IMG/VR virus record: IMGVR_UViG_3300032282_001509
Coordinates: 1 to 23,835 of that record
DNA from: a virus
Reading direction: 5' to 3' (one strand)
DNA: 23,835 nt
In this document: one piece after another, positions 4,571 to 21,140 of the stretch
Layout of the letters: each line of letters begins with the position of its first letter
Position numbering within the stretch: position 1 is the first letter of the stretch
Notes under the pieces: generated by a model
Databases searched by the model: none
What the model was told of the DNA's origin: nothing
Seen by the model: the letters and a program-made list of their open reading frames with translations, nothing else
Program-made: the position numbers and the translations under genes

Positions 4571-5478
4571 TGAAAATTTTTATGACGGGTAGTTCAGGGT
4601 TTATAGGTCAACATTTAGTTGAAAGATTATCAAAAAAATATCAATTGGATTATCTTACTTGTGACTTATTAGATTTTGAACAAGTTAACTCGCAGGTTTT
4701 AAACAGTAACCCTGATATTATCATACATCTTGCAGCCAGAACTGAAGTAGAAAAATCATTTACCGAACAAATAACTTTCAGTCAGATTAATTATGTAGGT
4801 ACTGTTAACCTAATTGAATCTGCGCGTAAGTTACCGAATTTAAAAAACTTTATATTTGCATCAACTATGGAAGTATATGGTTGGCAACCTATCAGCGATC
4901 TCATACGCGATGAAAAACCCTTTACTTTAGATGTCTTTGATGAACAGCGTCAGCCTAATCCTAATGCTCCATACGCTGTTGCCAAATACGGCTGTGAAAA
5001 ATATTTAGAATACGCAAGCAGAAGTTATGGTATGCCCTACACTATTTTCAGGCAGACTAATTCATATGGTCGTACCGATAATGACTTCTTTGTAGTTGAG
5101 CAAATTATCACACAGATGTTAAAGAATAAAGATGAAATACATTTGGGCTACGACAAACCATACAGAAATTTTTTGTATATAACAGATTTGTTAGACGCAT
5201 ATGAGGCAGTGTTAAGTAATACCGATAAGGTTAAAAATAACATATTTTGTTTGGGGCCAAATAATGCATTATCTATATCTGATTTAGCAAATTTGATAGC
5301 AAGCAAACTCAATTGGAACGGTAAAATTCTTTGGGGACAAAAACCTAAAAGACCGGGTGAGATTTATTGTTTGAATAGTACTAATAATAAACTAACCAAT
5401 TTAACGGGTTGGGCTCCTAAAATTTCTTTAGATATTGGATTAGGTATGACAATTGATTATTGGAAAAATAATATTTGA
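4570..5478 (+). CDS. NAD-dependent epimerase/dehydratase (extended SDR)
   Basis: A 302-residue extended short-chain dehydrogenase. The N-terminal Rossmann motif is TGSSGFIG (residues 6-13); HLAA lies at 53-56; Ser98/Thr99 in FASTMEVYG and YAVAK (135-139) supply the Ser-Tyr-Lys catalytic set. Members of this branch act on nucleotide sugars (UDP-glucose/galactose epimerases, dTDP- or GDP-sugar dehydratases); the substrate cannot be read here. It starts in the stop of uvsW (TAATG). It is markedly more AT-rich than uvsW and looks like a late-added cargo gene at the end of the operon. Along with the glycosyltransferase-like and SGNH genes elsewhere it suggests sugar modification of the host surface or virion. 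Confidence 0.88.
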   Translation: MKIFMTGSSGFIGQHLVERLSKKYQLDYLTCDLLDFEQVNSQVLNSNPDIIIHLAARTEVEKSFTEQITFSQINYVGTVNLIESARKLPNLKNFIFASTMEVYGWQPISDLIRDEKPFTLDVFDEQRQPNPNAPYAVAKYGCEKYLEYASRSYGMPYTIFRQTNSYGRTDNDFFVVEQIITQMLKNKDEIHLGYDKPYRNFLYITDLLDAYEAVLSNTDKVKNNIFCLGPNNALSISDLANLIASKLNWNGKILWGQKPKRPGEIYCLNSTNNKLTNLTGWAPKISLDIGLGMTIDYWKNNI

Positions 5479-7433: not shown

Positions 7434-7623
7434 TAACGATAACTATGTAGTAAGGATACATTGGAAACGTTATGAACAAAACTGGAATCAAATTTGTGCC
7501 ACTGCTGTAGAATATTTTGGATTGCCCGGCGATAGATTTTATACAGATGTATGCGCAGATTATATGGACTTTGTTTTTAAAGATGAAATAGATGCGATGT
7601 GGTTTAGTTTAAGATGCGAATGA
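7417..7623 (+). CDS. Small hypothetical protein with GTG start (68 aa)
   Basis: Function not recognised. The GTG at 7417 is supported by a strong AAGGAG at 7404-7409, seven bases upstream, which is one of the best SDs in the window. The protein has several aromatics (WKRYEQNWNQIC, EYFGLPGDRFY, ADYMDFVFKDEIDAMWF), and the C-terminal half looks like a ferredoxin-like strand-helix pattern. Cysteines are few and unpaired. It overlaps the finger gene by 17 bases and the next gene by an ATGA-type junction. Its SD-rich start contrasts with the leaderless genes nearby and suggests strong translation. Confidence 0.7.
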   Translation: MPVVIDNDNYVVRIHWKRYEQNWNQICATAVEYFGLPGDRFYTDVCADYMDFVFKDEIDAMWFSLRCE

Positions 7624-8321
7624 ACGATTACAAAAGTATATTGACTGAAGGCGAGGGCTATAAGGTCCTACAAAGTTTTATACCATATAAGTTAATTAAT
7701 GATTTTAACGGTATATTGGAGGACTTGTATCCTGTACGTGCTAGCAGTAGCACTAAGGTTTACGCTGAACGTGACGATATTAAAAATCTAAATGATATCA
7801 GCGTATGGTGGAGTCAATTAGTACACGATATGCCCGAATCAAAGGCTATACTAAAATTAGTTAACCCAATGATACAATCACACTTTGGTAACATGGATAT
7901 GTATGCTAACGATACGGTATTCATTAGTGCTGGTAGTACATGGATGAATCCACACATAGATACACCGCATAGATTTAAGAAATACAACTACGATAAAAGA
8001 TTGTTAGGTATACAGTGTATTATATCACTAGATGATATTGATAAGGATAGTGCAAGCACTGGAGTTGTGCCCTATAGTCAGAAACGTGACTTTGATATAG
8101 ACAAGTGTTATAAGGGTGAGTACGACCGCTGGTTCAAAGACAACTGTATACAACCAGACATGCCTGCCGGATCCATATTGTTTTACAACAGTCGTTTGTT
8201 ACATAGCAGTATGCCCAATCCAAAAAGTGTAGAACGCCCTGCTCTCTTGTACAACTACCTAGATCGTAATATAATTGACGAGATGAAGTCTATAGACAAT
8301 GTTTGGAGTAGCAATGGTTAA
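7620..8321 (+). CDS. 2-oxoglutarate/Fe(II)-dependent oxygenase, PhyH-like
   Basis: A 233-residue (from 7620) double-stranded-beta-helix dioxygenase. The iron facial triad is visible: HxD in MNPHIDTPHR (His112, Asp114) and the distal His in SRLLHSSMPN (His195); an Arg at 206 in ERPALLYNY is placed to bind 2-oxoglutarate. The family hydroxylates diverse small molecules, lipids or protein side chains; the substrate is not deducible. The ATG at 7620 overlaps the previous stop (ATGA); an ATG at 7614 would add two residues. It belongs to the early operon. Phages often carry such enzymes, with proposed roles in nucleotide or protein modification; here that is only a possibility. Confidence 0.85.
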   Translation: MNDYKSILTEGEGYKVLQSFIPYKLINDFNGILEDLYPVRASSSTKVYAERDDIKNLNDISVWWSQLVHDMPESKAILKLVNPMIQSHFGNMDMYANDTVFISAGSTWMNPHIDTPHRFKKYNYDKRLLGIQCIISLDDIDKDSASTGVVPYSQKRDFDIDKCYKGEYDRWFKDNCIQPDMPAGSILFYNSRLLHSSMPNPKSVERPALLYNYLDRNIIDEMKSIDNVWSSNG

Positions 8322-9124: not shown

Positions 9125-9870
9125 GAATTTTTGGAGACAGTTTTGCAAATAACCAATGGGTGTTTAATGGTTGGCCTACAGATTTAAGTAATATCCTAGG
9201 ATGCAAACAAGACAATTATGCATTAAATGGAACCTCTATTTGGTATTCTTACAAACTATTCCTAAAACATTATAAAAATTTCACACATATAGTATTTGTC
9301 TACACTAGTCCACATAGATGGCCAGTACTACCTGATTGGTTAAGAGGATTGGAGTATATGACAAATAAACATTTTTTAGAAATGTCTAAAGTTATTCACG
9401 AAGATCAAAAAATACCGATGACAAAATTGATAGATGTACATAAACTTTTGTTTGACGAAAAATATAATTATTTTGTTTACCAAAGTATCTTTGATAATAT
9501 CAATAACTTGTGCGCACAAAACAATATTCAATTAATGAATGTTCATCCTTTTGAAAATTCTGATTCAATACCAATGATAAATTTATCTAATCGCAAAGGA
9601 AGTTGTTTAATTGGTTTGCAACGTGTTCAACATAATGAGGGATTACATCCTGCATTACCAGAGGAAATAAGATATCCTAAACCTACTATTACTGACTTTA
9701 GACCTGCCCATATAAATCTTCCTAATAATAAAGTAGTAGCCGATATTATTGCAAATGAATTTGGAAAAGAACCTAGAGTGATAGATATACTCAAGGACGA
9801 AAGACTTACTTTTGATCCTCAAGTTTTAATAGAGATGTACCAAACTTATGTATCTAAACACAGACGTTGA
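9115..9870 (+). CDS. SGNH/GDSL-like hydrolase
   Basis: A 251-residue protein with a GDSF block I (residues 7-10) near the N-terminus after a beta strand, then NGTS (39-42) as a likely oxyanion/block II-III region. A late DFRPAHINLPNNKVVADII stretch could supply the His and helix of block V. These features fit SGNH hydrolases or acyl-esterases acting on lipid or polysaccharide acyl groups; the Asp of the catalytic dyad is not obvious, so activity is uncertain. It is distinctly AT-rich and Asn/Lys-rich compared with the flanking dexA and DnaE-like genes, suggesting insertion into the operon. A second SGNH-like gene lies at 18313. The ATG overlaps the dexA end. Confidence 0.65.
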   Translation: MRLGIFGDSFANNQWVFNGWPTDLSNILGCKQDNYALNGTSIWYSYKLFLKHYKNFTHIVFVYTSPHRWPVLPDWLRGLEYMTNKHFLEMSKVIHEDQKIPMTKLIDVHKLLFDEKYNYFVYQSIFDNINNLCAQNNIQLMNVHPFENSDSIPMINLSNRKGSCLIGLQRVQHNEGLHPALPEEIRYPKPTITDFRPAHINLPNNKVVADIIANEFGKEPRVIDILKDERLTFDPQVLIEMYQTYVSKHRR

Positions 9871-10423
9871 CATTGATTTTGGCAATCGTGATTTAATCTT
9901 GGAAAAGATTAAACACGTACCTGCAGCCATGCGTAAGGTTGAACCTATGCGCAAGCATAATACTGGTGTGCATATTACAGAAATACCCTATGATCCTGTA
10001 AATGATATGGCAGCGATTGATTATACTGAAGCAGAACTACGTGGCTATTTCAAATTAGACTTACTGAATGTTCACGTTTACAATCAAGTGCGTGATGAAC
10101 AACATTTAATTGAACTAATGCGCCAACCCGATTGGTCAAAATTAAAAGATAGTAAGTTCGTAGAACAATTGATACACTTAGGCAATCATTATAACTCTAT
10201 ACAACGTATGCCAGAACCAATCAACAGTATTCCTAGACTGGCAATGTTTCTAGCAGCAATACGTCCTGCAAAGAAACATTTGATTGGTTTACCCTGGGCT
10301 GAAGTAAGTAAGACTATATGGGAAAAAGAAAATGATGTGTATTCTTTTAAGAAAAGCCATTCGGTAGGATACGCACAGTTGGTTGTAGTACATATGAACT
10401 TATTGGTGGAAAATGGAAATTAA
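9848..10423 (+). CDS. Stand-alone protein resembling part of the DnaE fingers
   Basis: A 191-residue soluble protein. Three blocks resemble the polymerase/fingers part of bacterial DnaE: FKLDLLNVHVY (around 68-78), SIPRLAMFLAAIRPAK (127-142; compare the ALYRPGP motif of DnaE), and FKKSHSVGYAQLVVVHMNL (168-186; compare the KSHSVAYALISY motif). The whole DnaE is over 1,000 aa, so this would be a small isolated fragment-like derivative lacking the catalytic Asp triad region of the palm that I can see. I recall related proteins in marine phage genomes. A fold relict with a new role (clamp or replisome interaction) is possible; this is an inference. It overlaps its neighbours by 23 and 11 bases. 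Confidence 0.6.
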   Translation: MYLNTDVDIDFGNRDLILEKIKHVPAAMRKVEPMRKHNTGVHITEIPYDPVNDMAAIDYTEAELRGYFKLDLLNVHVYNQVRDEQHLIELMRQPDWSKLKDSKFVEQLIHLGNHYNSIQRMPEPINSIPRLAMFLAAIRPAKKHLIGLPWAEVSKTIWEKENDVYSFKKSHSVGYAQLVVVHMNLLVENGN

Positions 10424-10898
10424 ATTATTAAGTGAAGGTGATGAACAACTACGTAAGGTTTGTGAACCTTATGATTTTAAAAAGGATGGTGACCCCGCAG
10501 AATTAGTATCTGCTATGACCAAACTTATGTTTGACAGTAACGGTATTGGTCTTGCCGCACCCCAAGTTGGTGTACTCAAAAGACTTTTCATTATGGGCAA
10601 CGATCAGAAATTGTTTGTCTGTATTAATCCCGAAATAGTTTCGGGAGAGGGCGAAGAGCGTGATTTAGAGGGCTGCTTAAGTTTTCCCGATCTATGGATG
10701 AATGTCAAGCGACAGAAATCTATCAACGTAAAATATCAGACTATTAACGGTGAAACAGTAGAAAGCACATTACAGAATATTATAGCCCGTGTATTTCAAC
10801 ATGAACTAGACCATTTGGATGGGGTTTGTTTTGACACTAGAGTTGGTCCAGTGACACTAGACCTTGCTAAAGAAAAAAGACGTAGACGATCAAGATAA
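10413..10898 (+). CDS. def: Peptide deformylase
   Basis: A 161-residue PDF, removing the formyl group from nascent N-termini at the ribosome exit. All three motifs are present: GIGLAAPQVG (residues 44-53), EGCLSFP (86-92, metal ligand Cys88) and QHELDHLDG (129-137, ligands His130 and His134 with catalytic Glu131). The length is like compact type I enzymes, with a C-terminal KRRRRSR tail instead of the usual longer helix. Phage-borne PDFs are known in marine phages and probably maintain processing of proteins during infection. It is the last gene of the 5510-10898 operon and overlaps the end of the minus-strand gene by nine bases. An 8-bp inverted repeat with a 3-base loop lies inside it at 10628-10646. 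Confidence 0.95.
   Translation: MEIKLLSEGDEQLRKVCEPYDFKKDGDPAELVSAMTKLMFDSNGIGLAAPQVGVLKRLFIMGNDQKLFVCINPEIVSGEGEERDLEGCLSFPDLWMNVKRQKSINVKYQTINGETVESTLQNIIARVFQHELDHLDGVCFDTRVGPVTLDLAKEKRRRRSR
10628..10646 (+). repeat. Inverted repeat inside def
   Basis: TCCCGAAA (10628-10635) and TTTCGGGA (10639-10646), 8 bp perfect with a 3-base loop, within codons for INPEIVSGE. It could form a strong mRNA hairpin or be coincidental. Confidence 0.5.
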
Positions 10899-11288: not shown

Positions 11289-11296
11289 TATTTACT
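11289..11296 (-). promoter_or_regulatory. Late-promoter-like octamer AGTAAATA, minus strand
   Basis: A minus-strand AGTAAATA, 18 bases from the ATG of the minus-strand gene. It forms a back-to-back pair with the plus-strand ACTAAATA at 11333-11340, a layout expected of a divergent late-transcription switch. The -10 octamer alone is weak evidence. Confidence 0.4.
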
Positions 11297-11332: not shown

Positions 11333-11340
11333 ACTAAATA
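11333..11340 (+). promoter_or_regulatory. Late-promoter-like octamer ACTAAATA
   Basis: ACTAAATA with predicted +1 near 11346, followed by an AGGAG SD at 11347-11351 nine bases before the GTG at 11361. T4 late promoters carry TATAAATA here; the first bases differ, as allowed in marine relatives. Confidence 0.5.
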
Positions 11341-11360
11341 TTATGTAGGAGCAACGATCT

Positions 11361-12161
11361 GTGACAGTCACTAATGTAGGTTATTCAACGGCGGTATTTT
11401 ACTTTACTCAGCGTCAGATCGTGGTCCTACTAACAGGAAACAGTCCGAGGGCCTTTATGCCAGTATATGCAAAAACACTAAATTTACACAAGGGTGTAGA
11501 TAACAAGATACAATTTCAGTTCTTAAATCAAGAACAGAAACCAGTTGATATTACAGGCAAGAGCATTACTTGTCGCATTATCAATTATAACGGTACTGAA
11601 GTGTTAATTAACAAAGCACTGACCCCGGAATTACCATTAACTGGTATAGCATATCTATATCTGAATGCTGCCGATTTAGAAGATATAGATGCGCAAAAGT
11701 GTCACTACAGTTTAGAGATTCCTGTAGGTGAATTCAGTTTCCCAGTATTTGTTGATCCAGCAGCCGGCGCACGTGGTGATATAAACATTCTTAATAGCGT
11801 ATTACCAAGTTTCGTACCAAGTCAAATTGTAACTATACCTACTGGTCAAGCATTCCCTAACTTGGATCCTAACGTTAATGCAAATAATCCATTAACAAAC
11901 GCCAATACTTATTATAGTTCAACTATCAATACACAAGACAACCCAGTATTAACCATACAGGCCAAACTTGATGGATATAACGGTGATGTAGGCATTGAGG
12001 GAACTTGCAACCAACAGTTAACTGATTGGTATCCTATAACAGGTGATAGTTACGAAGATAAGACTGCTACAGTGGGTTACACCATACATGGATTCCATCC
12101 ATTTGTTCGTATGGTATTCACAAGTAATGCGGGCGTAGTCACACATATTTTGGCAAGATAA
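11361..12161 (+). CDS. Virion-type protein, probable structural
   Basis: A 266-residue beta-rich protein. The GTG at 11361 is supported by AGGAG nine bases upstream; an internal ATG at 11458 (MPVYAKTL) is an alternative start with GAGG nearby, but the preceding residues QRQIVVLLTGNSPRAF look coding. KGVDNKIQFQFLNQEQKPVDITGKSITCRI (around 49-78) is a strand-rich pattern resembling a bacterial or phage Ig-like or baseplate-type domain; its tail is Gly/Thr/Asn rich. I associate this N-terminus with structural proteins of marine T4-like phages but cannot name the T4 counterpart. It is a monocistronic late-type unit followed by the replication pair. Confidence 0.65.
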   Translation: MTVTNVGYSTAVFYFTQRQIVVLLTGNSPRAFMPVYAKTLNLHKGVDNKIQFQFLNQEQKPVDITGKSITCRIINYNGTEVLINKALTPELPLTGIAYLYLNAADLEDIDAQKCHYSLEIPVGEFSFPVFVDPAAGARGDINILNSVLPSFVPSQIVTIPTGQAFPNLDPNVNANNPLTNANTYYSSTINTQDNPVLTIQAKLDGYNGDVGIEGTCNQQLTDWYPITGDSYEDKTATVGYTIHGFHPFVRMVFTSNAGVVTHILAR

Positions 12162-12175
12162 ATCACCAATACTAT

Positions 12176-12203
12176 TTGTTTTTACACAACACTCTGTTAT
12201 AAT
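12176..12203 (+). promoter_or_regulatory. Promoter P5, predicted leaderless
   Basis: A perfect TATAAT at 12198-12203 with a weaker -35 (TTGTTT, 12176-12181, 16-base spacer). The predicted +1 at 12210 is the G of the primase GTG start, with no SD. This places primase and helicase in the early class despite their late-gene neighbours. Confidence 0.6.
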
Positions 12204-12209
12204 TAATGA

Positions 12210-13184
12210 GTGTTTGATATTCTTCAAATCGTTCCAGGCAAAAAGAAATTAACGCAAAGCGGTTGGCATAGTTTCAACGCTGTGTGTTGCCAATATCGTG
12301 GACACAGCAGGGACGAAAGAGGCAGAGGCGGAGTAAAATTTGACGGTGATAATTGGAGTTATCACTGCTTCAATTGTGGTTTTACTGCTAATTTTTTCTT
12401 AGGAAGTTATATTAATAAAAAAACAAAAACACTATTACATTATTGTGGCTGTGATGAAGATCAAATTGCTAAATGGAATCTTGATAGCATCAAGCATAGA
12501 GATTTATTAAGTTACGTTTCAAAGAAAAAAGAAAAATTAAAAGTTAAATTTGATGAGATGCCGCTTCCATTAGAAGCAGAATTAATTGACATAGAAAAGG
12601 AAAATCATAGACCGTATATAGATTATCTAATATCTAGAAAAATAGAGTATATGAATTATCCTTTTATGGTAACACCAGATGCAAAGGGTAGACAATCAAA
12701 TAGAATTATTATACCTTACACTTTTAAAAATAAAATAGTAGGGCACACTAGTAGATATTTGGATAATCATACCCCAAAGTTTATTAATGAGCAGCAACAA
12801 GGTTATGTATTTGGTTACGATCTACAAAAACCTGAATGGGAAGTATGTATTGTAACAGAAGGAATATTTGATGCACTTAGTTTAAATGCGTGTGCATTGA
12901 TGCACAATACCATCAATGATAAACAAGCAGATATATTGAAGTCATTAGAAAGAAAAATTATCGTAGTACCAGATCATGACAAGACAGGATTGCAGATTTG
13001 TGATCGCGCACTTGATTTGGGATTTCATGTCAGTATCCCTGAATGGGATATTGAGATAAAAGATGTGAACGATGCTGTAGTAAAATACGGGCGTGTATCT
13101 ACTTTACTAAGTATATTGCAGTCTGCAACTAACAGCAAAATTAAAATAGAAATGCAGAGGAAGAAACTTGATAGACAACTATAA
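12210..13184 (+). CDS. DNA primase, gp61-like
   Basis: A 324-residue DnaG-type primase, near T4 gp61 (342 aa), which makes RNA primers in the primosome with gp41. A zinc site is formed by Cys26/27, His32, Cys53 and Cys56 (HCFNC at 52-56). The catalytic Toprim domain shows TEGIFDALS (Glu217, Asp221), then VPDHDKTG (254-261), and DVND (285-288) as third metal-binding region. The start is a GTG at 12210, exactly at the predicted +1; an ATG three bases earlier meets a stop almost at once. It is followed by the helicase with a 17-base overlap, an arrangement expected for one primosome unit. Confidence 0.9.
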   Translation: MFDILQIVPGKKKLTQSGWHSFNAVCCQYRGHSRDERGRGGVKFDGDNWSYHCFNCGFTANFFLGSYINKKTKTLLHYCGCDEDQIAKWNLDSIKHRDLLSYVSKKKEKLKVKFDEMPLPLEAELIDIEKENHRPYIDYLISRKIEYMNYPFMVTPDAKGRQSNRIIIPYTFKNKIVGHTSRYLDNHTPKFINEQQQGYVFGYDLQKPEWEVCIVTEGIFDALSLNACALMHNTINDKQADILKSLERKIIVVPDHDKTGLQICDRALDLGFHVSIPEWDIEIKDVNDAVVKYGRVSTLLSILQSATNSKIKIEMQRKKLDRQL

Positions 13185-14565
13185 TTTTGAAGTGCAAGAA
13201 GTGTTCTTGCGCATGATGGTAACTAACGCAGAGTTATATACTCGCGTTATGAATATTATGAACGCTGAAAATTTTGATAGGCGTTTGAGACCTGTCGCTG
13301 AGTTCATTATAGATCATACTAAAAAATATAACGTGATGCCGGATCCAGTACAAATAAGTGCAACTTCTGGAATTACTATTGAAATGATTCCAGAACTTGA
13401 TGCAGGACATTATGAATGGTTCCTAGAAGAATTTGAGAAATTTACTAAACGACAAGAACTTGAGAGGGCTATCCTTAAATCGGCAGACTTGCTAGAGAAA
13501 GGAGAGTATGATCCTGTAGAGAAACTGATCAAAGATGCTGTTCAGATTTCTCTACAGAAGGACATGGGTACAGATTACTTTGCTGATCCTCGTGGTAGAT
13601 TGACATTACTCAAATCTAGCAATGGACAGAACAGTACAGGCTGGCCAAGTCTTGATCAAAAATTGTATGGTGGATTCAATCGCGGCGAACTACAAATCTT
13701 TGCAGGTGGTAGTGGATCAGGTAAGAGTTTGATCATGCAGAACCTAGCAGTTAACTGGGTTCAGAATGGGTTGAATGGTGCATATATCACACTTGAATTG
13801 AGTGAAGGTCTATGTAGTATGCGTATTGATAGTATGATGACTGACACAAGTTCAAAAGAAATTTTCAAAGACCTAGACAATGTTGAGATGAAGGTCAAAA
13901 TGGTCGCAAAGAAATCTGGACACTTACGTATCAAGTATATGCCGGCACAAAGCACAGTCAATGACATTCGTGCATATTGTAAAGAACTACAAATTCAAAC
14001 TGGTGTCAAGGTAGACTTCTTGTGTGTTGACTATCTTGATTTGATTATGCCAGTTAGTGCTAAGGTCAGTCCTAGCGATCTGTTCGTTAAGGACAAGTAT
14101 GTTTCAGAAGAATTGCGTAACCTAGCAAAGGAACTGAACGTACTATTCGTGACGGCAAGTCAGTTGAATCGTAGCGCAGTTGAAGAAATTGAGTTTGATC
14201 ATAGTCACATCTCAGGTGGTATCAGTAAGATCAATACTGCTGATAATGTGTTCGGTATCTTTACAAGTCGCAGTATGCGTGAGCGCGGGCTATATCAGAT
14301 TCAGTTGATGAAAACACGTAGTAGTTCAGGCGTGGGTCAGAAGATTGAACTTGCTTTTGACGTTGAGACATTGAGAATTACAGATAATAATACAGAAAAC
14401 AATCAAACTAAAGCACATCCTAGCGGTAACACATTGTTAGCACAGATTAAAAGCACTAGTCAAATAACTGCGTCAGAGGCGCCTACAGAAGAGGATGCTC
14501 CTAAAATTGGGGCAAATATACAAGCAGCCAAACTCAAATCGTTGCTTAACAATTTGAAAAAATAA
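13168..14565 (+). CDS. Replicative DNA helicase, gp41/DnaB-like
   Basis: A 465-residue RecA-fold hexameric helicase. Walker A is GGSGSGKS (residues 180-187), the catalytic Glu lies at ITLE (210), Walker B is DFLCVDYLDLI (283-293), and TASQLNRSA (~331-339) matches H3. The N-terminal ~130 residues are the helical collar, and residues after ~415 form a low-complexity tail (NNTENNQTKAH, ASEAPTEEDAPK). T4 gp41 (475 aa) unwinds ahead of the fork and activates gp61. The start is TTG at 13168 with AGAGGA upstream; it overlaps the primase end. Loader gp59 is not in the window. Confidence 0.92.
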   Translation: MIDNYNFEVQEVFLRMMVTNAELYTRVMNIMNAENFDRRLRPVAEFIIDHTKKYNVMPDPVQISATSGITIEMIPELDAGHYEWFLEEFEKFTKRQELERAILKSADLLEKGEYDPVEKLIKDAVQISLQKDMGTDYFADPRGRLTLLKSSNGQNSTGWPSLDQKLYGGFNRGELQIFAGGSGSGKSLIMQNLAVNWVQNGLNGAYITLELSEGLCSMRIDSMMTDTSSKEIFKDLDNVEMKVKMVAKKSGHLRIKYMPAQSTVNDIRAYCKELQIQTGVKVDFLCVDYLDLIMPVSAKVSPSDLFVKDKYVSEELRNLAKELNVLFVTASQLNRSAVEEIEFDHSHISGGISKINTADNVFGIFTSRSMRERGLYQIQLMKTRSSSGVGQKIELAFDVETLRITDNNTENNQTKAHPSGNTLLAQIKSTSQITASEAPTEEDAPKIGANIQAAKLKSLLNNLKK

Positions 14566-14576
14566 CCCAGAATCCT

Positions 14577-14584
14577 GATAAATA
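14577..14584 (+). promoter_or_regulatory. Late-promoter octamer GATAAATA
   Basis: GATAAATA with predicted +1 near 14590 and the ATG at 14601, so a short leader of about 10 bases, including TTAGGA. It heads the late block after the helicase stop (14563-14565). Confidence 0.65.
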
Positions 14585-14600
14585 CTATTAGGATACTATA

Positions 14601-14846
14601 ATGCAAAAACGTACTAAAAGCCTCTTAGAGGAATTGGATGCTATTTCCCTAAATCGTGACGTACCCCATCTTGTGGAAAGTCGCGGTACACATATCATAA
14701 GCAGTGCTATCAATCTGATAGAATTAATAAACCGTCATTATAGTAAGGAAAAAGCAGAGTTGCTAGAAAAGAAATTGCTTAGTGCCATCAAAAATAAAGA
14801 TCAGGGACGCTTTAGCAAAAGCGTTAAGAAAAATGAAAATATTTGA
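14601..14846 (+). CDS. Small phage protein, late-region (81 aa)
   Basis: Function not recognised. The protein is short, helical and basic, with LVESRGTHIISSAINLIELINRHY (~25-48), then a Lys/Glu-rich C-terminal helix. The pattern of an N-terminal RTKSLLEEL segment followed by ESRG and a C-terminal LLSAIKNKD is one I recall from marine T4-like phages, function unknown. The upstream late-promoter octamer makes it late-expressed. It overlaps the next gene by 14 bases. Confidence 0.7.
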   Translation: MQKRTKSLLEELDAISLNRDVPHLVESRGTHIISSAINLIELINRHYSKEKAELLEKKLLSAIKNKDQGRFSKSVKKNENI

Positions 14847-15822
14847 GGTGACAGAGGCATCAGCACCCGGGGTTCAATCTCCTAGCATGTTAAGCAGAGT
14901 GCTTTCTAATTTTGGATTTGGTAAAAAAAATTTAAGTCAGAATGAATATCAGATATATGCTGATATGGTAGGCAAAGACTTAGATAATGCTGTACAGGAA
15001 ATTATTAAAAACCCAAATTTAGGCCCTGACAAATTAGAACCTTCATTAGAAAATTGGTTTGCTAAAAAATATGGCCCAATCAACCCAAATTATATGAACG
15101 TGTTTAGACAAAGTATTGACAGTATCGCTAATTCTGTAAAGGCTGATCAAAACTTGCTAGGAAAAAACTATCAAACAGCCAAAGCACCATATATTAAAAG
15201 TTTGTGGAATTTGCAAACAGATGCAGAACAGAAGTTACGTGCTAATAAGGTATACGGATATAATACTGCAACTCAACAACCAGCACCCGCCCAACCACTA
15301 GCACCTGCTCAACAACCAGCACCCGCTCAGGTACAACCACAGGCAGCGCCAGCAGGACGATCACCTGAAGAAATTGAAGATATGAAAAAACGCGGATTTG
15401 ATCCTGTAACAGGAAATAGAATCAAGGCTGCACCTGTAAGAACAGGCGGTAAGGTGAAAGGACAATTAAGCACAGATCCTAGGGCAGTAGCACGTAGACA
15501 GGCTACAGCAGCAAGACACGCACAGGCTGCAGGGTTAAATGTCAGTTATCCGGCACAACAGCAAGCTACCGCTGCACCGGCTCAAAAGGCTACCAAACGT
15601 TCAAAGCGTGCCGCAGCAGCCCGAGCAGTAAGTGGAGCAGTCCAACCAAAACAACCAGCAATTAAAATTGGAAAACAAATTATTAAACCTAATGATCCTA
15701 GATACGCTCAAATAATGAAGAATGTACCAAACTTGTCTATGGTTCAAGAATCCTTAGATTTGAGCGATAGAAAGTACAATGAATGGAATTCATTGTTACT
15801 AGAACTAATAAAAAACCCTTAA
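14833..15822 (+). CDS. Late protein with Pro/Ala/Gln-rich linker (329 aa)
   Basis: Function not recognised. The start at ATG 14833 gives 329 residues and overlaps the previous gene by 14 bases; an earlier in-frame ATG at 14782 lies wholly inside the preceding gene. Residues 1-~135 are helical, including NWFAKKYGPINPNYMNVFRQ. They are followed by a low-complexity linker with repeated PAPAQ (about 149-175), then a basic Ala/Arg-rich region with TAARHAQAAG and ATKRSKRAAAARA, and a conserved-looking C-terminal segment LSMVQESLDLSDRKYNEWNSLLLELI. The layout resembles scaffold, tape-like or DNA-interacting virion proteins. AT-rich and basic; role unknown. Confidence 0.7.
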   Translation: MKIFEVTEASAPGVQSPSMLSRVLSNFGFGKKNLSQNEYQIYADMVGKDLDNAVQEIIKNPNLGPDKLEPSLENWFAKKYGPINPNYMNVFRQSIDSIANSVKADQNLLGKNYQTAKAPYIKSLWNLQTDAEQKLRANKVYGYNTATQQPAPAQPLAPAQQPAPAQVQPQAAPAGRSPEEIEDMKKRGFDPVTGNRIKAAPVRTGGKVKGQLSTDPRAVARRQATAARHAQAAGLNVSYPAQQQATAAPAQKATKRSKRAAAARAVSGAVQPKQPAIKIGKQIIKPNDPRYAQIMKNVPNLSMVQESLDLSDRKYNEWNSLLLELIKNP

Positions 15823-15856
15823 TTAATACCCAAAACCCACGTTTTTTTACTCCTGG

Positions 15857-15864
15857 CATAAATA
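15857..15864 (+). promoter_or_regulatory. Late-promoter octamer CATAAATA
   Basis: The closest match in the window to the T4 TATAAATA octamer. Predicted +1 near 15870 coincides with the first base of a 5-bp stem-loop (15871-15886), and the ATG follows at 15909 with GGAG at 15896-15899. This is probably a strong late promoter. Confidence 0.75.
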
Positions 15865-15870
15865 ATAGTA

Positions 15871-15886
15871 GACCTCTTTGAAGGTC
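15871..15886 (+). promoter_or_regulatory. Leader stem-loop at the predicted mRNA 5' end
   Basis: GACCT (15871-15875) pairs with AGGTC (15882-15886) around a 6-base loop. The predicted transcript would begin with this hairpin, an arrangement known to protect bacterial mRNAs from 5'-end dependent decay. It lies well upstream of the SD. Confidence 0.5.
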
Positions 15887-15908
15887 AAACAACATGGAGA
15901 TTTAAAAA

Positions 15909-16277
15909 ATGGCACAGTTCACTAAAGTCAATGGCGACTTTCAAGGCGTCATCAATTATGACTCATTCGCATATACTAATAACGGTTTAAACGCAACAAC
16001 AGCTAACCTTGCAATTCAGCCACAGGGTCCAAAGTTGGACTTCTTCACTGTAACTGCAACAGGTGCTTTCAGTAACGCACAAGTAGCAAACGTAATTCAA
16101 GCCGTTGAGCAGTTAGCAACTGTTATGATTTATGAGTACAAAGATGACACAAACGATTCAATCGCCCTAGCAATCTACCCAGTAGGTGCATGGACTACAA
16201 CTACTCTAAACGCAAACGTAGCAGCAGCAGGTATCTCAGGTACTACTACAACTGCTGTAGCTTCTTTCAATAACTAA
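15909..16277 (+). CDS. Probable virion protein, strongly expressed late unit (122 aa)
   Basis: A 122-residue protein, Thr/Ala/Asn-rich and almost free of Cys and Lys at the C-terminus (TTTTLNANVAAAGISGTTTTAV). There are hydrophobic beta segments (QPQGPKLDFFTVTA and QLATVMIYEYKDD). This composition and size suit a decoration or other virion surface protein; I recall similar proteins in marine T4-like phages without a function. Expression signals are the strongest in the late region: near-consensus late octamer, 5' stem-loop, good SD, ATG and a perfect terminator immediately after. That makes it a high-level monocistronic unit. Confidence 0.7.
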   Translation: MAQFTKVNGDFQGVINYDSFAYTNNGLNATTANLAIQPQGPKLDFFTVTATGAFSNAQVANVIQAVEQLATVMIYEYKDDTNDSIALAIYPVGAWTTTTLNANVAAAGISGTTTTAVASFNN

Positions 16278-16304
16278 TAGTTATTTTAAGTTAACGTAAG
16301 TAAG

Positions 16305-16334
16305 GCCCGAGAAGTAAAATTCTCGGGCTTTTTT
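16305..16334 (+). terminator. Intrinsic terminator
   Basis: A 9-bp perfect stem (GCCCGAGAA at 16305-16313 with TTCTCGGGC at 16320-16328), a six-base loop and six Ts. It ends the 122-aa unit and precedes the next late-promoter-like motif by a few bases. Confidence 0.9.
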
Positions 16335-16339
16335 GTGGC

Positions 16340-16347
16340 TGTAAATA
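16340..16347 (+). promoter_or_regulatory. Late-promoter-like octamer TGTAAATA
   Basis: TGTAAATA with the ATG only four bases beyond. The predicted +1 falls inside the ATG or just at it, so the transcript would be leaderless. It sits between a terminator and the gene, so some promoter is needed here. Confidence 0.5.
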
Positions 16348-16351
16348 CAGG

Positions 16352-16774
16352 ATGAGCGTTAAGATAGCCTGTTATACATTATTTGATATTACACAGACCG
16401 GTGTTCTTAACAGAGCAAGACCACCTGAGGGCGTTGACGTAGACGAATGGCTTTATAAACGCAATACACAATGCAATTTTGATACGATAATACAGGCAGT
16501 ATCATTACGCAGTCAGCCTGAAAACATCTCGCACCCCACTCAAGTAAACATAATAGACGACTATTTTGACACACAAGGTCCTGTACGTTGCTGGAAGTTT
16601 GACTTTGAAATACGTTCAATATCAGTATTCAGTGACGGCAACGATGAACTAGCATATCTTAAAGCAGATGTTGAAGATATACCAATGGTATTATGTGGTA
16701 CTGAACACCCTAACACAGAGCAATTTATAAGTGCGAAAAAACCTGCAAAAAACATACATTTCATTAAATATTAA
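16352..16774 (+). CDS. Conserved-looking late phage protein (140 aa)
   Basis: Function not recognised. The ATG at 16352 opens directly after the late-like octamer, with no SD. The pattern MSVKIACYTLFDITQTGVLNR at the N-terminus, YKRNTQCNFDTIIQAVSLRSQPENI (~30-55) and WKFDFEIRSISVFSDGNDELAYL (~77-99) is one I recall from marine T4-like phages, at a fixed place in the structural region. It is mixed alpha/beta, has no nuclease or enzyme signature, and a late structural or assembly role is likely by location. Its end overlaps a possible late motif for the next gene. Confidence 0.7.
   Translation: MSVKIACYTLFDITQTGVLNRARPPEGVDVDEWLYKRNTQCNFDTIIQAVSLRSQPENISHPTQVNIIDDYFDTQGPVRCWKFDFEIRSISVFSDGNDELAYLKADVEDIPMVLCGTEHPNTEQFISAKKPAKNIHFIKY
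16763..16770 (+). promoter_or_regulatory. Possible late octamer ATTAAATA
   Basis: ATTAAATA lies at the very end of the preceding coding sequence, five bases before the ATG at 16776. It may be chance within the codons ATT AAA TAT, but its position repeats the spacing seen at 18300-18313. Confidence 0.35.
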
Positions 16775-16775
16775 T

Positions 16776-17219
16776 ATGAATAAGCATGATCTGGCAAAAA
16801 GGATCAATGATCTATTAATCATCAAGCAGGATGATAACAGCTATCATCTGTTTGGCCAATACATAATCAATAAAAAAGATGAGGGTTTTATAGTCGGTAA
16901 TCTTTATGATAGTGAAATTAAACTTCAGTTTGCACAGTTAAAACATGCAGTTACATGGTGTGTATTCCATAAGAACAAGAAGCATAAAGATTTACGAAAA
17001 ATAGCAGAATTAGATGAAAAACTAGAAGGGCTGCAATTGACAATTAATAACCTTAAACGATTAGCAGAAAAGGCAAATACAGAGAACAGGCCTATATATC
17101 TAGCCAAACTGTTTGAAGATAAGGTTAAACGTCAGGCTGCGCAGAAGGCTATGAATTTGTATATAGATACTAGCAAGTATTGGCAAACTAAAACCTTTAA
17201 AGAAAATCAGACCATTTAA
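16776..17219 (+). CDS. Late hypothetical protein, coiled-coil type (147 aa)
   Basis: Function not recognised. The ATG at 16776 follows the previous stop by one base (TAATATG); an in-frame ATG at 16731 would lie inside the previous gene. YHLFGQYIINKKDEGFIVGNL (~23-43) is a beta region, LKHAVTWCVFHKNKKHKDLRKIAELDEKLEGLQLTINNLKRLAEKA (~55-100) is a long amphipathic helix with heptad-like spacing, and YIDTSKYWQTKTF closes it. A helical assembly or structural factor is plausible. I recall relatives in marine T4-like phages at a similar place; no role known. Confidence 0.7.
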   Translation: MNKHDLAKRINDLLIIKQDDNSYHLFGQYIINKKDEGFIVGNLYDSEIKLQFAQLKHAVTWCVFHKNKKHKDLRKIAELDEKLEGLQLTINNLKRLAEKANTENRPIYLAKLFEDKVKRQAAQKAMNLYIDTSKYWQTKTFKENQTI

Positions 17220-17235
17220 AAATTTTAAATTACGT

Positions 17236-17243
17236 GATAAATA
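17236..17243 (+). promoter_or_regulatory. Late-promoter octamer GATAAATA
   Basis: GATAAATA followed by C, identical in octamer to that at 14577. The predicted +1 near 17249 gives a 14-base leader with AGGA ahead of the ATG at 17263. Confidence 0.65.
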
Positions 17244-17262
17244 CAAGACAGGATTGAATCAT

Positions 17263-17958
17263 ATGAAACTAGAAAATTTTGACAGAAAGAATGTAGCACA
17301 GAAGGCTCTAAAAGAGAACTTCAACCATAACTTTGATTTCTCAAAGTTGAACAAAGCACAGACTAGAGAAATGCTAGTCAAGTTTGACAAGGTTATTAAG
17401 GAATCTAAAAAGAAGAATGGATATGATTCACATAAAAATCCTACTTATTTGAAGGCTATTATGATTGCAGAAGCATTATCCAATCACTATCGTACTTTGG
17501 GTGATGCACGTATCGTTGTAGAAAACACTGAAGTAGAAAAGTCACAAGTAATTCTTGCTGCCCAAGACTTAGTTGACCAAATTCAGAAAATGGTTGAGCA
17601 AGTCAATGATATGTTAGTCAAAGAATTACCTGCATTAGCAGATAGCATTCAAAGTGAAATCGGTGTACAAGAAGGTAACTCATATAATGAAGCAGCCAGC
17701 GGTTCACTAACACAATTAAATTCAACATTAAGCGAAACACGTACAGCATTGCAAAATGCACTTAACCAATTAACTGGTATGGCAGGTCCTGGCGACTTTG
17801 GTGCAGCACCAGCAGGCGGTGAAGAAGTTGCTGTAACTGATATTGCTGCAGGTCCTGGCGGCGAAGAAGTGGCAGGGGCAGAACTTGAAACTCCTCCTAT
17901 GCCGGCAGAAGAGCCAGAAGCACCAGTAGGCGGCGGGGTCGGTCGCGCTAAGAGATAA
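17263..17958 (+). CDS. Late helical protein with acidic Gly/Ala/Pro tail (231 aa)
   Basis: Function not recognised. The start is ATG at 17263, ten bases after AGGA; a TTG at 17254 is in frame but less likely. Residues 1-~85 are basic and helical. Residues 85-~165 form a long helix, VILAAQDLVDQIQKMVEQVNDMLVKELPALADSI. The tail from ~180 is a low-complexity acidic stretch rich in Gly, Ala, Glu and Pro (GGEEVA, PPMPAEEPEAPVGGG). The helix plus acidic tail recalls scaffold or core proteins of phage heads; I recall similar proteins in marine T4-like phages but cannot name the T4 gene. It ends two bases before the next start and is probably co-transcribed with it. Confidence 0.72.
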   Translation: MKLENFDRKNVAQKALKENFNHNFDFSKLNKAQTREMLVKFDKVIKESKKKNGYDSHKNPTYLKAIMIAEALSNHYRTLGDARIVVENTEVEKSQVILAAQDLVDQIQKMVEQVNDMLVKELPALADSIQSEIGVQEGNSYNEAASGSLTQLNSTLSETRTALQNALNQLTGMAGPGDFGAAPAGGEEVAVTDIAAGPGGEEVAGAELETPPMPAEEPEAPVGGGVGRAKR

Positions 17959-17960
17959 TC

Positions 17961-18293
17961 ATGTATCTCTTTGAGTTTGAAAGCGAGAAAAGCCTAGTTG
18001 CTAAAATATTAGTTGCGGCTGATAGTTTAGAGCAACAACGCAAAGAAGGAAAGTTAAAAAAGAACTGGACAGTGGAACAGTTGCTTAATTACTTTTCCAA
18101 ATATGACATAACACTCGCAAGAAAGGATCTGTATAACATGATACAGAAAGATCCTCTCAAAAAAACTATAAGCAATATTCAAGGCGATGAAGTTGTATTC
18201 AAAGGTAATGCAGGAAAAGAACCTGCCGAAAGTCCTCCCCCAGAGCAAAGTAAAGAAGTAGTTAACAAGATGGCTAAAAAAGCCATGAAATGA
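17961..18293 (+). CDS. Late hypothetical protein (110 aa)
   Basis: Function not recognised. The ATG follows the preceding stop by two bases, so the two are coupled. Helical N-terminal half (LVAKILVAADSLEQQRKEG, WTVEQLLNYFSKYDITLARKDLYNMIQ), a beta strand IQGDEVVFKGN around residue 72-82, a Pro-rich linker, and a final basic amphipathic segment VVNKMAKKAMK. The same pattern with a C-terminal KxMAxxAMK is one I recall from marine T4-like phages. A virion-assembly partner of the preceding protein is the likeliest reading. A 6-bp inverted repeat (ATGGCT/AGCCAT, 18270-18286) sits at its 3' end without a T-run. Confidence 0.68.
   Translation: MYLFEFESEKSLVAKILVAADSLEQQRKEGKLKKNWTVEQLLNYFSKYDITLARKDLYNMIQKDPLKKTISNIQGDEVVFKGNAGKEPAESPPPEQSKEVVNKMAKKAMK
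18270..18286 (+). repeat. Inverted repeat at 3' end of late gene
   Basis: ATGGCT (18270-18275), loop AAAAA, AGCCAT (18281-18286). It encodes part of the conserved-looking KMAKKAMK tail, so it may be coding constraint. No T-tract follows. Confidence 0.35.
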
Positions 18294-18299
18294 CCATTT

Positions 18300-18307
18300 G
18301 CTAAATA
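18300..18307 (+). promoter_or_regulatory. Late-promoter-like octamer GCTAAATA
   Basis: GCTAAATA followed by C, five bases before the ATG at 18313, with predicted +1 at 18313. It precedes the AT-rich SGNH and glycosyltransferase-like pair, implying late expression. Confidence 0.5.
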
Positions 18308-18312
18308 CTGGC

Positions 18313-19125
18313 ATGTCTAGAAAAAAGTTGATGGTATGTGGCTGCAGTTTTTCTGCATTGCCAATGGAAGAACCGCATATAGGTACACACTTTAGCGAAA
18401 TACTTACTAAACGTTTAGATTGGGACCTAGTCAATAATGCTTATCGTGGATGCAGTAACGGCGGTGTTAGATTACAAATTGCTGAAGTTATCAAACAAAA
18501 ACCAGATTTCGCAATTATAATACCCACTTTTTTTGATAGAACTGAAATTCCTGTAACAGCATTAAAGCCTGATTATGACAATATCGGATGGGCAGACTTT
18601 GATCGTATCATGCAAAAATATTCTGGTTATGATCCTTCTCAAGGAATAGAAAATATTAATTATGGTAATAGCACGGCACCTACATTAATTTGTGAAAATT
18701 ATAACAGTTTGGTGCATGAATGGGTTCATCCCTACCGAAAAAAACATCCTATTTCTAAAGAAGCTACCCAGGCAATAAAAGATTTTGTTTCATATCTTTA
18801 TGACGCTAACTGGAAAAAACAACAAGATCAATGGATTATTGAACATGGATGTTTAGAATTAGTCCAACACAACATACCTTTTGTTATGATTCCAACCTTA
18901 TCACTTTGGCAAAACGAAGGTCCTAAACTATTAGATACAAAATATTATACATTAGATGCAAATTTATATTGTCCTTGTTTTAATGGTGGCAAACCTGAAT
19001 TTTCTTTCGGAGATTATAGAACAGAACATAATAAAGATCCTGGATATCATACAAATTACGCCGGTCAAATATATCTAGCAGATCAATATCAAAACCTAAT
19101 GAAAGAGCGTTGGGGTTTACAATAA
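18313..19125 (+). CDS. SGNH-like hydrolase, second copy
   Basis: A 270-residue protein opening with KKLMVCGCSFSALP: a beta strand and a GCSFS block (residues 10-14) equivalent to GDSL. NGG follows at 49-51 and the final segment GYHTNYAGQIYLADQY is placed like the block V His and helix. Ser12 is the candidate nucleophile; the Asp partner is not obvious. The start ATG at 18313 has no SD and lies at the predicted +1. It is AT-rich against its late-region neighbours and, together with the next gene, looks like an inserted cargo pair. The family acts on acyl esters of lipids and polysaccharides; the substrate is unknown. Not closely similar by eye to the 9115 gene beyond the motif. Confidence 0.65.
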   Translation: MSRKKLMVCGCSFSALPMEEPHIGTHFSEILTKRLDWDLVNNAYRGCSNGGVRLQIAEVIKQKPDFAIIIPTFFDRTEIPVTALKPDYDNIGWADFDRIMQKYSGYDPSQGIENINYGNSTAPTLICENYNSLVHEWVHPYRKKHPISKEATQAIKDFVSYLYDANWKKQQDQWIIEHGCLELVQHNIPFVMIPTLSLWQNEGPKLLDTKYYTLDANLYCPCFNGGKPEFSFGDYRTEHNKDPGYHTNYAGQIYLADQYQNLMKERWGLQ

Positions 19126-19127
19126 TC

Positions 19128-20036
19128 ATGCAGGATTTAGTCACTATAGCGTGTAATAGAGAAAGAGACCTAATGTTATTACATGCAGAAAGTATACAAA
19201 AATTTTTAGACCCTTGTACACACTGGATCGTTATTAATGAAAAAGAACCTGATGTAAATGCATGGTTAGAAATTCTAAAACCTTACTATACTAAACATAA
19301 ACTAAATGTAATACCAAGAAGTTATTTTTCGCAAGAAAAAGAATTTTCTAACATGCATGGGCAAATTTCACAGCAGGCATGCAAATTTTTAGTATCAAAA
19401 TTTATTCAAAAAAATTATTTAATATTAGATACCAAAAATTTTTTTATTAGAAAGTGTAATTTATTTGAGTATCACAAAATAATAGGGTCCGGTATAATTG
19501 AATTCGTTAGCCGCCCACCTGATGATTGGGATAAATTTCAGCCATGGTTCAAAGGGGACCATGAGATGTGGTCTGAGACTGTAAAAGAATACGCTAGAGT
19601 TTTTAACTTAAGTACAGTACCAAATTACTATTTGGCTCCTAAAACCCCATTTGTAATGGATTATGATTTACTCTGTAAGCGTATTAATTTAGAAACTTTT
19701 TTAAGGGATTTTAGTTATAAACCTAACGGTGATCAAATATACTCACCAAGCGAATTTATTTTTTATAGCATGGCAGTAAATGATTTTATAAAACCGGGCG
19801 TCAACACTATATCACGATCAGAGGAAATGGATTCTTATACCTTAATGCCCCATAATTTTGAATATCATTCAAAAGAATTATTATCGGAAGAACATTTTAC
19901 GATGTTGAACACTATTGGGGAAAATATAAAAATTTACGGGATACATCGTAAATTTTTAAGAAAATGTGGCCCTGAACATATTAAAATACTGAACAAATGG
20001 CTTGCTAGCATGGATTTCGCATTTAGATATAGGTAA
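19128..20036 (+). CDS. Glycosyltransferase-like protein (DUF6492-type)
   Basis: A 302-residue protein, best read as a member of the DUF6492-like glycosyltransferase-like group. DLVTIACNRERDLMLLHAESIQKF at the N-terminus is a GT-A-like opening, WIVINE (~37-42) a following strand, YLILDTKNFFIRK (~98-110) stands where a DxD-like site occurs, and TPFVMDYDLLC (~171-181) is a later conserved-type block. The DTKN motif is not a canonical DXD, so activity is not assured. The ATG at 19128 is two bases after the SGNH stop, so the two genes are co-expressed late. Low GC sets it apart. Plausible jobs are decorating the host surface or the virion. Confidence 0.55.
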   Translation: MQDLVTIACNRERDLMLLHAESIQKFLDPCTHWIVINEKEPDVNAWLEILKPYYTKHKLNVIPRSYFSQEKEFSNMHGQISQQACKFLVSKFIQKNYLILDTKNFFIRKCNLFEYHKIIGSGIIEFVSRPPDDWDKFQPWFKGDHEMWSETVKEYARVFNLSTVPNYYLAPKTPFVMDYDLLCKRINLETFLRDFSYKPNGDQIYSPSEFIFYSMAVNDFIKPGVNTISRSEEMDSYTLMPHNFEYHSKELLSEEHFTMLNTIGENIKIYGIHRKFLRKCGPEHIKILNKWLASMDFAFRYR

Positions 20037-20045
20037 CCATAACTG

Positions 20046-20075
20046 TTGACTTTTTGCAACAATATATCGTATAAT
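20046..20075 (+). promoter_or_regulatory. Promoter P6, predicted leaderless
   Basis: TTGACT (20046-20051), an 18-base spacer and TATAAT (20070-20075). The predicted +1 is at 20082, the first base of TTG-ATG, so either the TTG is the start or the ATG is three bases from the 5' end. No SD. Confidence 0.65.
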
Positions 20076-20084
20076 TAACTGTTG

Positions 20085-20408
20085 ATGATAACTTTAACTG
20101 AATCGGCTGCAAACCGTTTTAAAGAACAACTACAAAATCGTGGATACGGTTTAGGCATTAACCTAAGCGTTAAAAAGACAGGTTGTTCAGGGTATGCATA
20201 TGTCTTGAATTTTCATGACACGCCAGATACAAATAATTATATTGTCTACAAGTCAAACGATGTAAAGATTTTTGTTGAAAACGAAAGTTTAAAATATGTT
20301 GACGGTACGCAAATTGATTATGTTAAAAACGGTCTCAACGAAGCATTTAAATTTATCAATCCACAAGTTAAAGGTGAATGCGGTTGCGGAGAGAGTTTTA
20401 CAATTTGA
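20085..20408 (+). CDS. A-type iron-sulfur cluster carrier (IscA/HesB-like)
   Basis: A 107-residue HesB/IscA-family protein. The three conserved cysteines are present: Cys34 in KTGCSGYAY, and Cys99 and Cys101 in CGCGES near the C-terminus. Family members carry or assemble Fe-S clusters for transfer to apo-proteins. An ATG at 20085 is preferred; the TTG at 20082 gives one extra residue. It is preceded by its own early-type promoter, which separates it from the AT-rich late pair. Phage copies are thought to support Fe-S enzymes during infection, and here a co-transcribed neighbour is a nuclease of a fold that includes Fe-S members (Cas4/AddB), though that nuclease shows no Cys cluster. Confidence 0.92.
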   Translation: MITLTESAANRFKEQLQNRGYGLGINLSVKKTGCSGYAYVLNFHDTPDTNNYIVYKSNDVKIFVENESLKYVDGTQIDYVKNGLNEAFKFINPQVKGECGCGESFTI

Positions 20409-21094
20409 TTTACTTACCTAACAAATATCCATACGCAGAACTAAAGAAACAAACTATTGACGGGTCAAGAAAATACATGACCCCAGATGGATTCGCAGTT
20501 CCCAGTGTCACCACAATACTAGACGCTACTAAGCCTGAAGAAAAGAAGAAGGCATTACTTGAGTGGCGCAAACGTGTAGGCGAAGAGAAGGCTAAGCAGA
20601 TCACGACTGAGGCTGCTGGTCGCGGTACACGTATGCACAAGTGGCTTGAGAATCATGTCAAGACAGGTGCTACGGGGGAACCCGGCACTAATCCTTATAG
20701 CATACAAAGTCATCAAATGGCACAAACCATTATTGAGAAGGGCTTAAGTAAATGTCAGGAGTTTTGGGGTACAGAAGTCAGCCTATACTTCCCTGAAGTC
20801 TATGCAGGAACTACTGACCTTGTGGGTGTCCACGATGGTGCAGATGCTATCATGGACCATAAGCAAACTAATAAGCCCAAAAAGCGTGAATGGATTGAAG
20901 ATTATTTCCTACAATTAGCAGCCTATGCTAACGCACATAATGAAGTATATGGTACTAAAATACGCAAAGGCGTAGTTTTTATGTGTAGTGCTGATAATCA
21001 ATATCAGGAGTTTATCGTTGAAGGTCTAGAGTTTGATCGTTATACTGAAGGCTGGTATAAGCGCCTAGAACAGTACTATTCAACTTTCCTATAG
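20405..21094 (+). CDS. PD-(D/E)XK nuclease
   Basis: A 229-residue nuclease (from 20405). The active site reads GTTDLVG (Asp in TTD) followed by AIMDHKQTNK (D-x-K), the PD-(D/E)XK core, and a C-terminal LQLAAYANAHN helix as in the RecB/MGME1-like exonuclease branch. AAGRGTRMHKWLE (~71-83) is the usual first helix. The start is uncertain: a TTG at 20405 overlapping the previous stop gives MIYLPNKYPYAEL and is chosen on spacing and coding pattern; an ATG at 20378 lies inside the Fe-S carrier gene. It likely processes DNA ends, in recombination or degradation of host DNA. It shares the transcription unit with the Fe-S carrier. Confidence 0.82.
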   Translation: MIYLPNKYPYAELKKQTIDGSRKYMTPDGFAVPSVTTILDATKPEEKKKALLEWRKRVGEEKAKQITTEAAGRGTRMHKWLENHVKTGATGEPGTNPYSIQSHQMAQTIIEKGLSKCQEFWGTEVSLYFPEVYAGTTDLVGVHDGADAIMDHKQTNKPKKREWIEDYFLQLAAYANAHNEVYGTKIRKGVVFMCSADNQYQEFIVEGLEFDRYTEGWYKRLEQYYSTFL

Positions 21095-21107
21095 AGTAGT
21101 CCATTTG

Positions 21108-21115
21108 CATAAATA
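21108..21115 (+). promoter_or_regulatory. Late-promoter octamer CATAAATA for the fibre gene
   Basis: CATAAATA, the same octamer as at 15857, with predicted +1 near 21121 and the ATG at 21141. It is a separate late unit after the Fe-S/nuclease pair. Confidence 0.7.
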
Positions 21116-21140
21116 GTTGTAATACCGGTAAGTTACAACT
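21115..21140 (+). repeat. Inverted repeat ending at the fibre start codon
   Basis: AGTTGTAA (21115-21122) and TTACAACT (21133-21140) form a perfect 8-bp inverted repeat around a 10-base centre. The right arm ends at the base before the ATG. Because the predicted +1 lies within the left arm, it may act as a DNA element rather than an RNA hairpin. Confidence 0.55.

Follow-up and report, generated by a model that had tools for sequence, protein, structure and literature searches.

The TAAATA-containing octamers of the viral fragment analysed here are very probably late promoters of the gp55 type, driving late mRNAs that would be leaderless where the octamer lies 4–7 nt from the start codon and leadered where it lies 13–30 nt away. 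In the proposed mechanism, host RNA polymerase with a phage gp55-like sigma factor would read the octamers as T4-type late promoters, and the distance between promoter and start would have two settings in the clade. At the first (4–7 nt from the ATG, mode 5), the +1 would fall on or beside the A of the AUG, giving a leaderless or nearly leaderless mRNA. At the second (13–30 nt), a leader would be transcribed, often opening with a Shine-Dalgarno (SD) sequence. Three of the nine promoters found would be of the leaderless kind. The spacing to the start codon is the most informative feature of these sites and was overlooked in the original prediction; it implies putative leaderless transcripts at three of the eight sites listed there.

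The window, i.e. the whole stretch of DNA analysed, is a 23,835-base viral fragment (IMG/VR virus record IMGVR_UViG_3300032282_001509) with a GC content of 37.5%. The gp41 helicase of the window shares 54% identity with that of Pseudomonas jumbo phage PA5oct, which by this measure is the closest relative in culture, and 48% with that of Sinorhizobium phage Phosso. The order of genes near the primase and helicase is the same in the window and PA5oct, and many nearer relatives, about 66–85% identical, are present in IMG/VR. Judging from these gp41 identities, the gene order and the closer IMG/VR relatives, the window phage is a member of an uncultured clade of giant T4-superfamily phages. A megablast of the second half of the window against phages gave no match. 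Genes are defined throughout as open reading frames (ORFs) and are not the calls of a trained gene finder.

The eight octamers originally predicted at 11333, 14577, 15857, 16340, 16763, 17236, 18300 and 21108 are all present, with plus-strand TAAATA cores at 11335, 14579, 15859, 16342, 16765, 17238, 18302 and 21110. Exactly four of them (cores 14579, 16342, 17238 and 18302) are followed by C, as had been claimed. A ninth octamer, not listed there, is located on the minus strand (TAAATA 11294–11289) before the 10890–11270 gene, the one gene on the minus strand of this region that has good support. The first two bases of the octamers are not TA but G or A, followed mostly by A or C. A TATAAATA-like octamer with a conserved TAAATA core before late genes is what characterizes a T4-type late promoter, and this arrangement is found here. 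Promoters of the T4 late type typically also have the octamer roughly one helical turn ahead of the transcription start and lack a conserved -35 element. At the cores 16765 and 18302, the longest mechanical ORF opens upstream of the octamer (GTG 16731 and TTG 18298), but according to the homologues the conserved starts are ATG 16776 and ATG 18313. All features are collected in Table 1.

Table 1. Predicted late promoters and associated features in the window
Feature	Position	Strand	Details
Ninth late promoter	11289–11296	-	18 nt before minus-strand ATG 11270; homologues spaced 6–7 nt or longer
Late promoter octamer ACTAAATA	11333–11340	+	predicted +1 ~11346; AGGAG 11347–11351; GTG start 11361; ~15-nt leader
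Late promoter GATAAATA(C)	14577–14584	+	predicted +1 14590, the first base of AGGA; ATG 14601
Late promoter CATAAATA	15857–15864	+	predicted +1 ~15870; hairpin 15871–15886 in leader; GGAG 15896–15899; ATG 15909
Intrinsic terminator	16305–16334	+	9-bp stem GCCCGAGAA/TTCTCGGGC and T6; -18.5 kcal/mol; directly upstream of the 16340 promoter
Late promoter TGTAAATA(C)	16340–16347	+	ATG 16352 follows after 4 nt; transcript predicted to be leaderless
Predicted leaderless gene, family ‘CYTLFDIT’	16352–16774	+	33 members spaced 4–7 nt
Late promoter ATTAAATA	16763–16770	+	in the terminal part of the upstream gene; ATG 16776 follows after 5 nt; transcript predicted to be leaderless
Predicted leaderless gene	16776–17219	+	spacing 5 nt in 7 of the 7 family members listed
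Late promoter GATAAATA(C)	17236–17243	+	predicted +1 ~17249; AGGA 17250–17253; ATG 17263
Late promoter GCTAAATA(C)	18300–18307	+	ATG 18313 follows after 5 nt; transcript predicted to be leaderless
Predicted leaderless gene, 270 aa, no known family	18313–19125	+	
Late promoter CATAAATA	21108–21115	+	before collagen-like tail-fibre gene, ATG 21141; ~20-nt leader, no clear SD

On both strands of the window, TAAATA occurs 14 times compared to 41.5 times in dinucleotide shuffles, and 9 of these 14 sites are start-proximal. Within the called coding sequences only 6 copies are found, with 27.7 expected from protein-keeping synonymous-codon shuffles (about 4.6-fold depletion), while the motif is concentrated immediately upstream of starts. 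The same avoidance within genes is seen on both strands in the large relatives G001, G002, G003 and G006. Motif frequency upstream of genes as against inside them, on which the original prediction was to stand or fall, therefore comes out in its favour. Its T4-style reading is further strengthened by the conservation of the motif in relatives and by the gp55-like factor described below. That the genes behind the octamers are late or structural is backed by profile hits for three of them, namely 14601 (an 81-aa virion protein, phrog_11854), 17263 (virion-protein-like, phrog_14154) and 21141; the genes at 15909, 16352, 16776 and 18313 belong to no known family. Two inverted repeats were also observed. 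The hairpin GACCTC-TTTG-AAGGTC (15871–15886) begins about one base past the predicted +1 of the 15857 promoter and would thus cap the 5′ end of its message. The repeat GTTGTAA...TTACAAC (21116–21140) separates the tail-fibre ATG from the 21108 promoter.

A gp55-like factor had been expected elsewhere in the genome. No gp55 gene is present in the window, a 24-kb fragment, and such a factor was found in relatives with a matching gp41 (G002, G024 and G027). In the 200-kb relative G002 it matches phrog_12791 (E 5e-72) and phrog_234 (E 5e-22), and gp55-like proteins are also encoded by PA5oct and Phosso and at 80 further loci, among them the ones of G024 and G027. The gp55-like factor has an N-terminal NYxNNK motif and region 2 in common with T4 gp55. 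The T4 trio of gp55, gp33 and gp45 on which the original prediction drew is not supported as a whole, its first member being the one recovered. For gp33 (phrog_254), the best clade match has an E value of 0.017, compared to 2e-33 in T4 and 5e-32 in S-PM2, and is not convincing. T4-type gp45 (phrog_223) is strongly matched in T4 and S-PM2, gave no match in G001, G002, G024, G026 and G027 and is weak in G025 (E 4.5e-4), and a divergent sliding clamp in the clade is possible. Among the gp55-like proteins of L140 (1465–2364), L210 and L246, two have a hydrophobic-acidic C-terminal tail (TPIFEE, STVYEE) that recalls the clamp-binding C-terminus of T4 gp55, although a T4-type clamp was not found in the clade.

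Next to the motif itself, its distance to the start codon was analysed, taken as the number of bases that separate TAAATA from an ATG opening an ORF downstream, with one count per site in the large contigs. In the clade this spacing is two-peaked, with a sharp peak at 5 nt (4–7 nt), a broad one at 13–30 nt and a dip at 8–12 nt. Across 82 relative loci, 51 cases are found at 5 nt and 15, 10 and 12 at 4, 6 and 7 nt, respectively. Nine large contigs pooled contain 112 sites at 4–7 nt compared to 25.6 expected from permuted hexamers, for which the Poisson P of 2.5e-36 counts homologous sites of different contigs as independent, which they are not. By the same measure, G001 has 15 sites (3.0 expected), G002 25 (5.4), G003 9 (0.7), G004 5 (0.5), G005 7 (0.8), G006 7 (1.8) and the window 3 (0.6), while G007 shows no effect (2 vs 1.7). 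Two contigs that were added once the hypothesis had been formed, G024 (21 vs 5.4) and G027 (20 vs 6.3), replicate the peak.

When each protein family is counted once per distance, TAAATA is found at 5 nt in 53 families, compared to 0–31 for nine control hexamers. At 0–3 nt it is depleted, with 16 families against 33–71 for the controls. In 162 contigs, the 4–7 nt class comprises 245 sites in 88 families, 31 of which have at least two members, and chance should account for roughly one quarter of the single sites. The spacer is conserved in distance and not in sequence. A count of the bare TAAATANNNNNATG pattern was discarded as too crude for AT-rich genomes.

None of the six cultured genomes has the 4–7 nt peak, with 2 sites in T4 (5.7 expected), 1 in S-PM2 (2.0), 0 in CBB (7.3), 1 in the first 200 kb of Atu_ph07 (3.0), 3 in PA5oct (6.8) and 0 in 50 kb of Phosso (0.1). 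PA5oct and Phosso looked useful at first as models of the spacing and were dropped, since both lack the peak. The long ORFs of PA5oct include three 5-nt cases, and one 5-nt site directly precedes the structural protein gp262 (144985), which is supported by mass spectrometry.

The position of the SD sequence indicates where transcription would start. In genes with TAAATA 12–35 nt away, the first SD base falls at offsets 0 to 7 after the hexamer in 0, 0, 3, 0, 7, 22, 19 and 20 cases, while the counts are flat for hexamers not overlapping the motif. Given this abrupt onset and the flat controls, leaders seem to begin about 5 nt past TAAATA, some of them with the SD itself, as at 14590 in the window. 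The SD onset and the ATG peak both begin 4–5 nt after TAAATA. In T4, the first base of the late octamer is numbered -13 (octamer -13 to -6) (PMC2988020), which would place the +1 six bases after the octamer. By these two independent lines, the +1 would therefore coincide with the A of an ATG that is 5 nt away; it is from the sequences that we infer the exact 5′ end, as well as promoter activity and leaderless translation initiation. Leaderless mRNAs favour AUG strongly over GUG and UUG. Homologous starts comprise 246 ATG and 2 GTG at 4–7 nt compared to 215 ATG and 35 GTG/TTG at 13–45 nt, a difference partly biased by seeds having been chosen for ATG. In plain ORF counts, the exclusion of GTG/TTG was not discriminating, as these starts are rare at every distance.

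Three genes of the window belong to the predicted leaderless class, 16352 (4 nt), 16776 (5 nt) and 18313 (5 nt). In relatives it includes the large terminase (G001, G024 and G027), the portal, a gp25-like baseplate protein, several virion proteins and a ClpX-like ATPase. For the 14601 virion-protein family, the spacing is at most 7 nt in 9 relatives and at least 12 nt in 64, mostly with an SD, at the same homologous start codon. In the 16352 family, whose window protein has no relative in the cultured phage records, a strong intrinsic terminator ends just upstream of the octamer in 30 of 33 members, compared to 13 of 3000 random positions. Since upstream messages should stop at this terminator, a transcript starting at the AUG would be the obvious way to express the 16352 gene. 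Most of the predicted leaderless families have no upstream terminator, and this argument fits 2 of the 12 largest. The window also encodes an A-type iron-sulphur carrier (PF01521, 20082–20408), some homologues of which have TAAATA 5–7 nt before the ATG in relatives.

Chance matches in AT-rich DNA might be considered, as the window has 37.5% GC and the motif is a single hexamer. The dinucleotide-shuffle, synonymous-shuffle, permuted-hexamer and family-once controls all contradict this, leaving it hardly conceivable. The octamers could also be late promoters of the usual T4 kind whose transcripts have a normal leader, the real start being a downstream codon with its own SD. Promoters of T4, S-PM2 and CBB are indeed mostly 13–35 nt from starts, and the start codons here were assigned by ORF. 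However, an irrelevant ATG would not give an exact 5-nt peak in dozens of unrelated families, homologues use the same start codon with an SD leader (e.g. the 14601 family), and homologous N-termini are similar up to close to the ATG. A downstream start is therefore unlikely.

AU-rich stretches upstream of starts can help SD-independent initiation, and the ATG-proximal TAAATA might accordingly act as a translation enhancer within a longer message instead of a promoter, read-through messages being possible at the majority of sites, which lack an upstream terminator. Against this, the same hexamer is also found 13–30 nt in front of genes with an SD, which there sets in at a constant distance from it, and the pattern is absent for permuted AT hexamers. 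Moreover, upstream transcripts in the 16352 family should end at the terminator, and genes avoid TAAATA on either strand, which is what a promoter would predict. An enhancer role is thus very unlikely, and late promoters with two spacing settings are the reading we prefer.

Compared with the late promoters of T4 (TATAAATA; gp55, gp33 and gp45), those of the clade have the same TAAATA core, scarcity in genes and location before virion genes, with a related gp55-like factor. They differ in that the first two bases are not TA, C often follows the octamer, a 4–7 nt ATG peak is present, and gp33 and T4-type gp45 were not convincingly found. Relaxed first bases upstream of structural genes are shared with the late motifs of the jumbo phages CBB/GAP32 (ATAAATA; PMC5259590) and the cyanophage S-PM2 (NATAAATA; PMC2984593), while CBB and S-PM2 show no enrichment at 4–7 nt. 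Pectobacterium phage CBB has been described in the same state as the clade, with the ATAAATA motif and gp55 and with no gp33 or gp45 detected (PMC5259590), and the promoter class itself is therefore already known. Genes of CBB (KU574722) avoid TAAATA very strongly (77 observed, 407 expected from synonymous shuffles). A textbook leaderless transcript is that of lambda cI from pRM. According to the AR9 paper, leaderless transcripts are frequent in phages (PMC5312081). The predicted clade transcripts would resemble these in having the AUG at or beside the 5′ end, and would differ in forming a recurrent architecture for many late virion genes of a T4-type system. The open-licence papers searched contained no account of leaderless late genes in T4-type phages.

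If this holds true, promoter and start codon are fused for core virion genes across a large uncultured T4-superfamily group, which was observed in none of the six cultured genomes. Late transcription starts would become predictable from sequence, and gene calling for clade genomes would change. It would also pose the problem of how efficient translation of leaderless virion messages is achieved during infection, when phage bS21 is present in the cell as well, and genes that have a leader in some relatives and none in others would offer a natural comparison for leaderless initiation. That the clade runs a dedicated late leaderless translation programme, in which dozens of virion genes bypass the SD, possibly via bS21-altered ribosomes, is a speculative and rather unlikely extension.

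Ribosomal protein bS21 is encoded by G001, G003, G004, G007, G008, G010, PA5oct and Phosso. As the sole cause of the spacing architecture it is ruled out, because PA5oct and Phosso encode bS21 yet lack the spacing peak. Among the other genes of the window, a peptide deformylase gene (10413–10898; PF01327, E 2e-41) adjoins the predicted leaderless late region. The short protein encoded at 9848–10423 matches a phage DNA polymerase family (phrog_11778) and is possibly a split or partial polymerase subunit. Auxiliary metabolism is represented by an NAD-dependent epimerase/dehydratase (4570–5478) and a PhyH-type dioxygenase (7614–8321).
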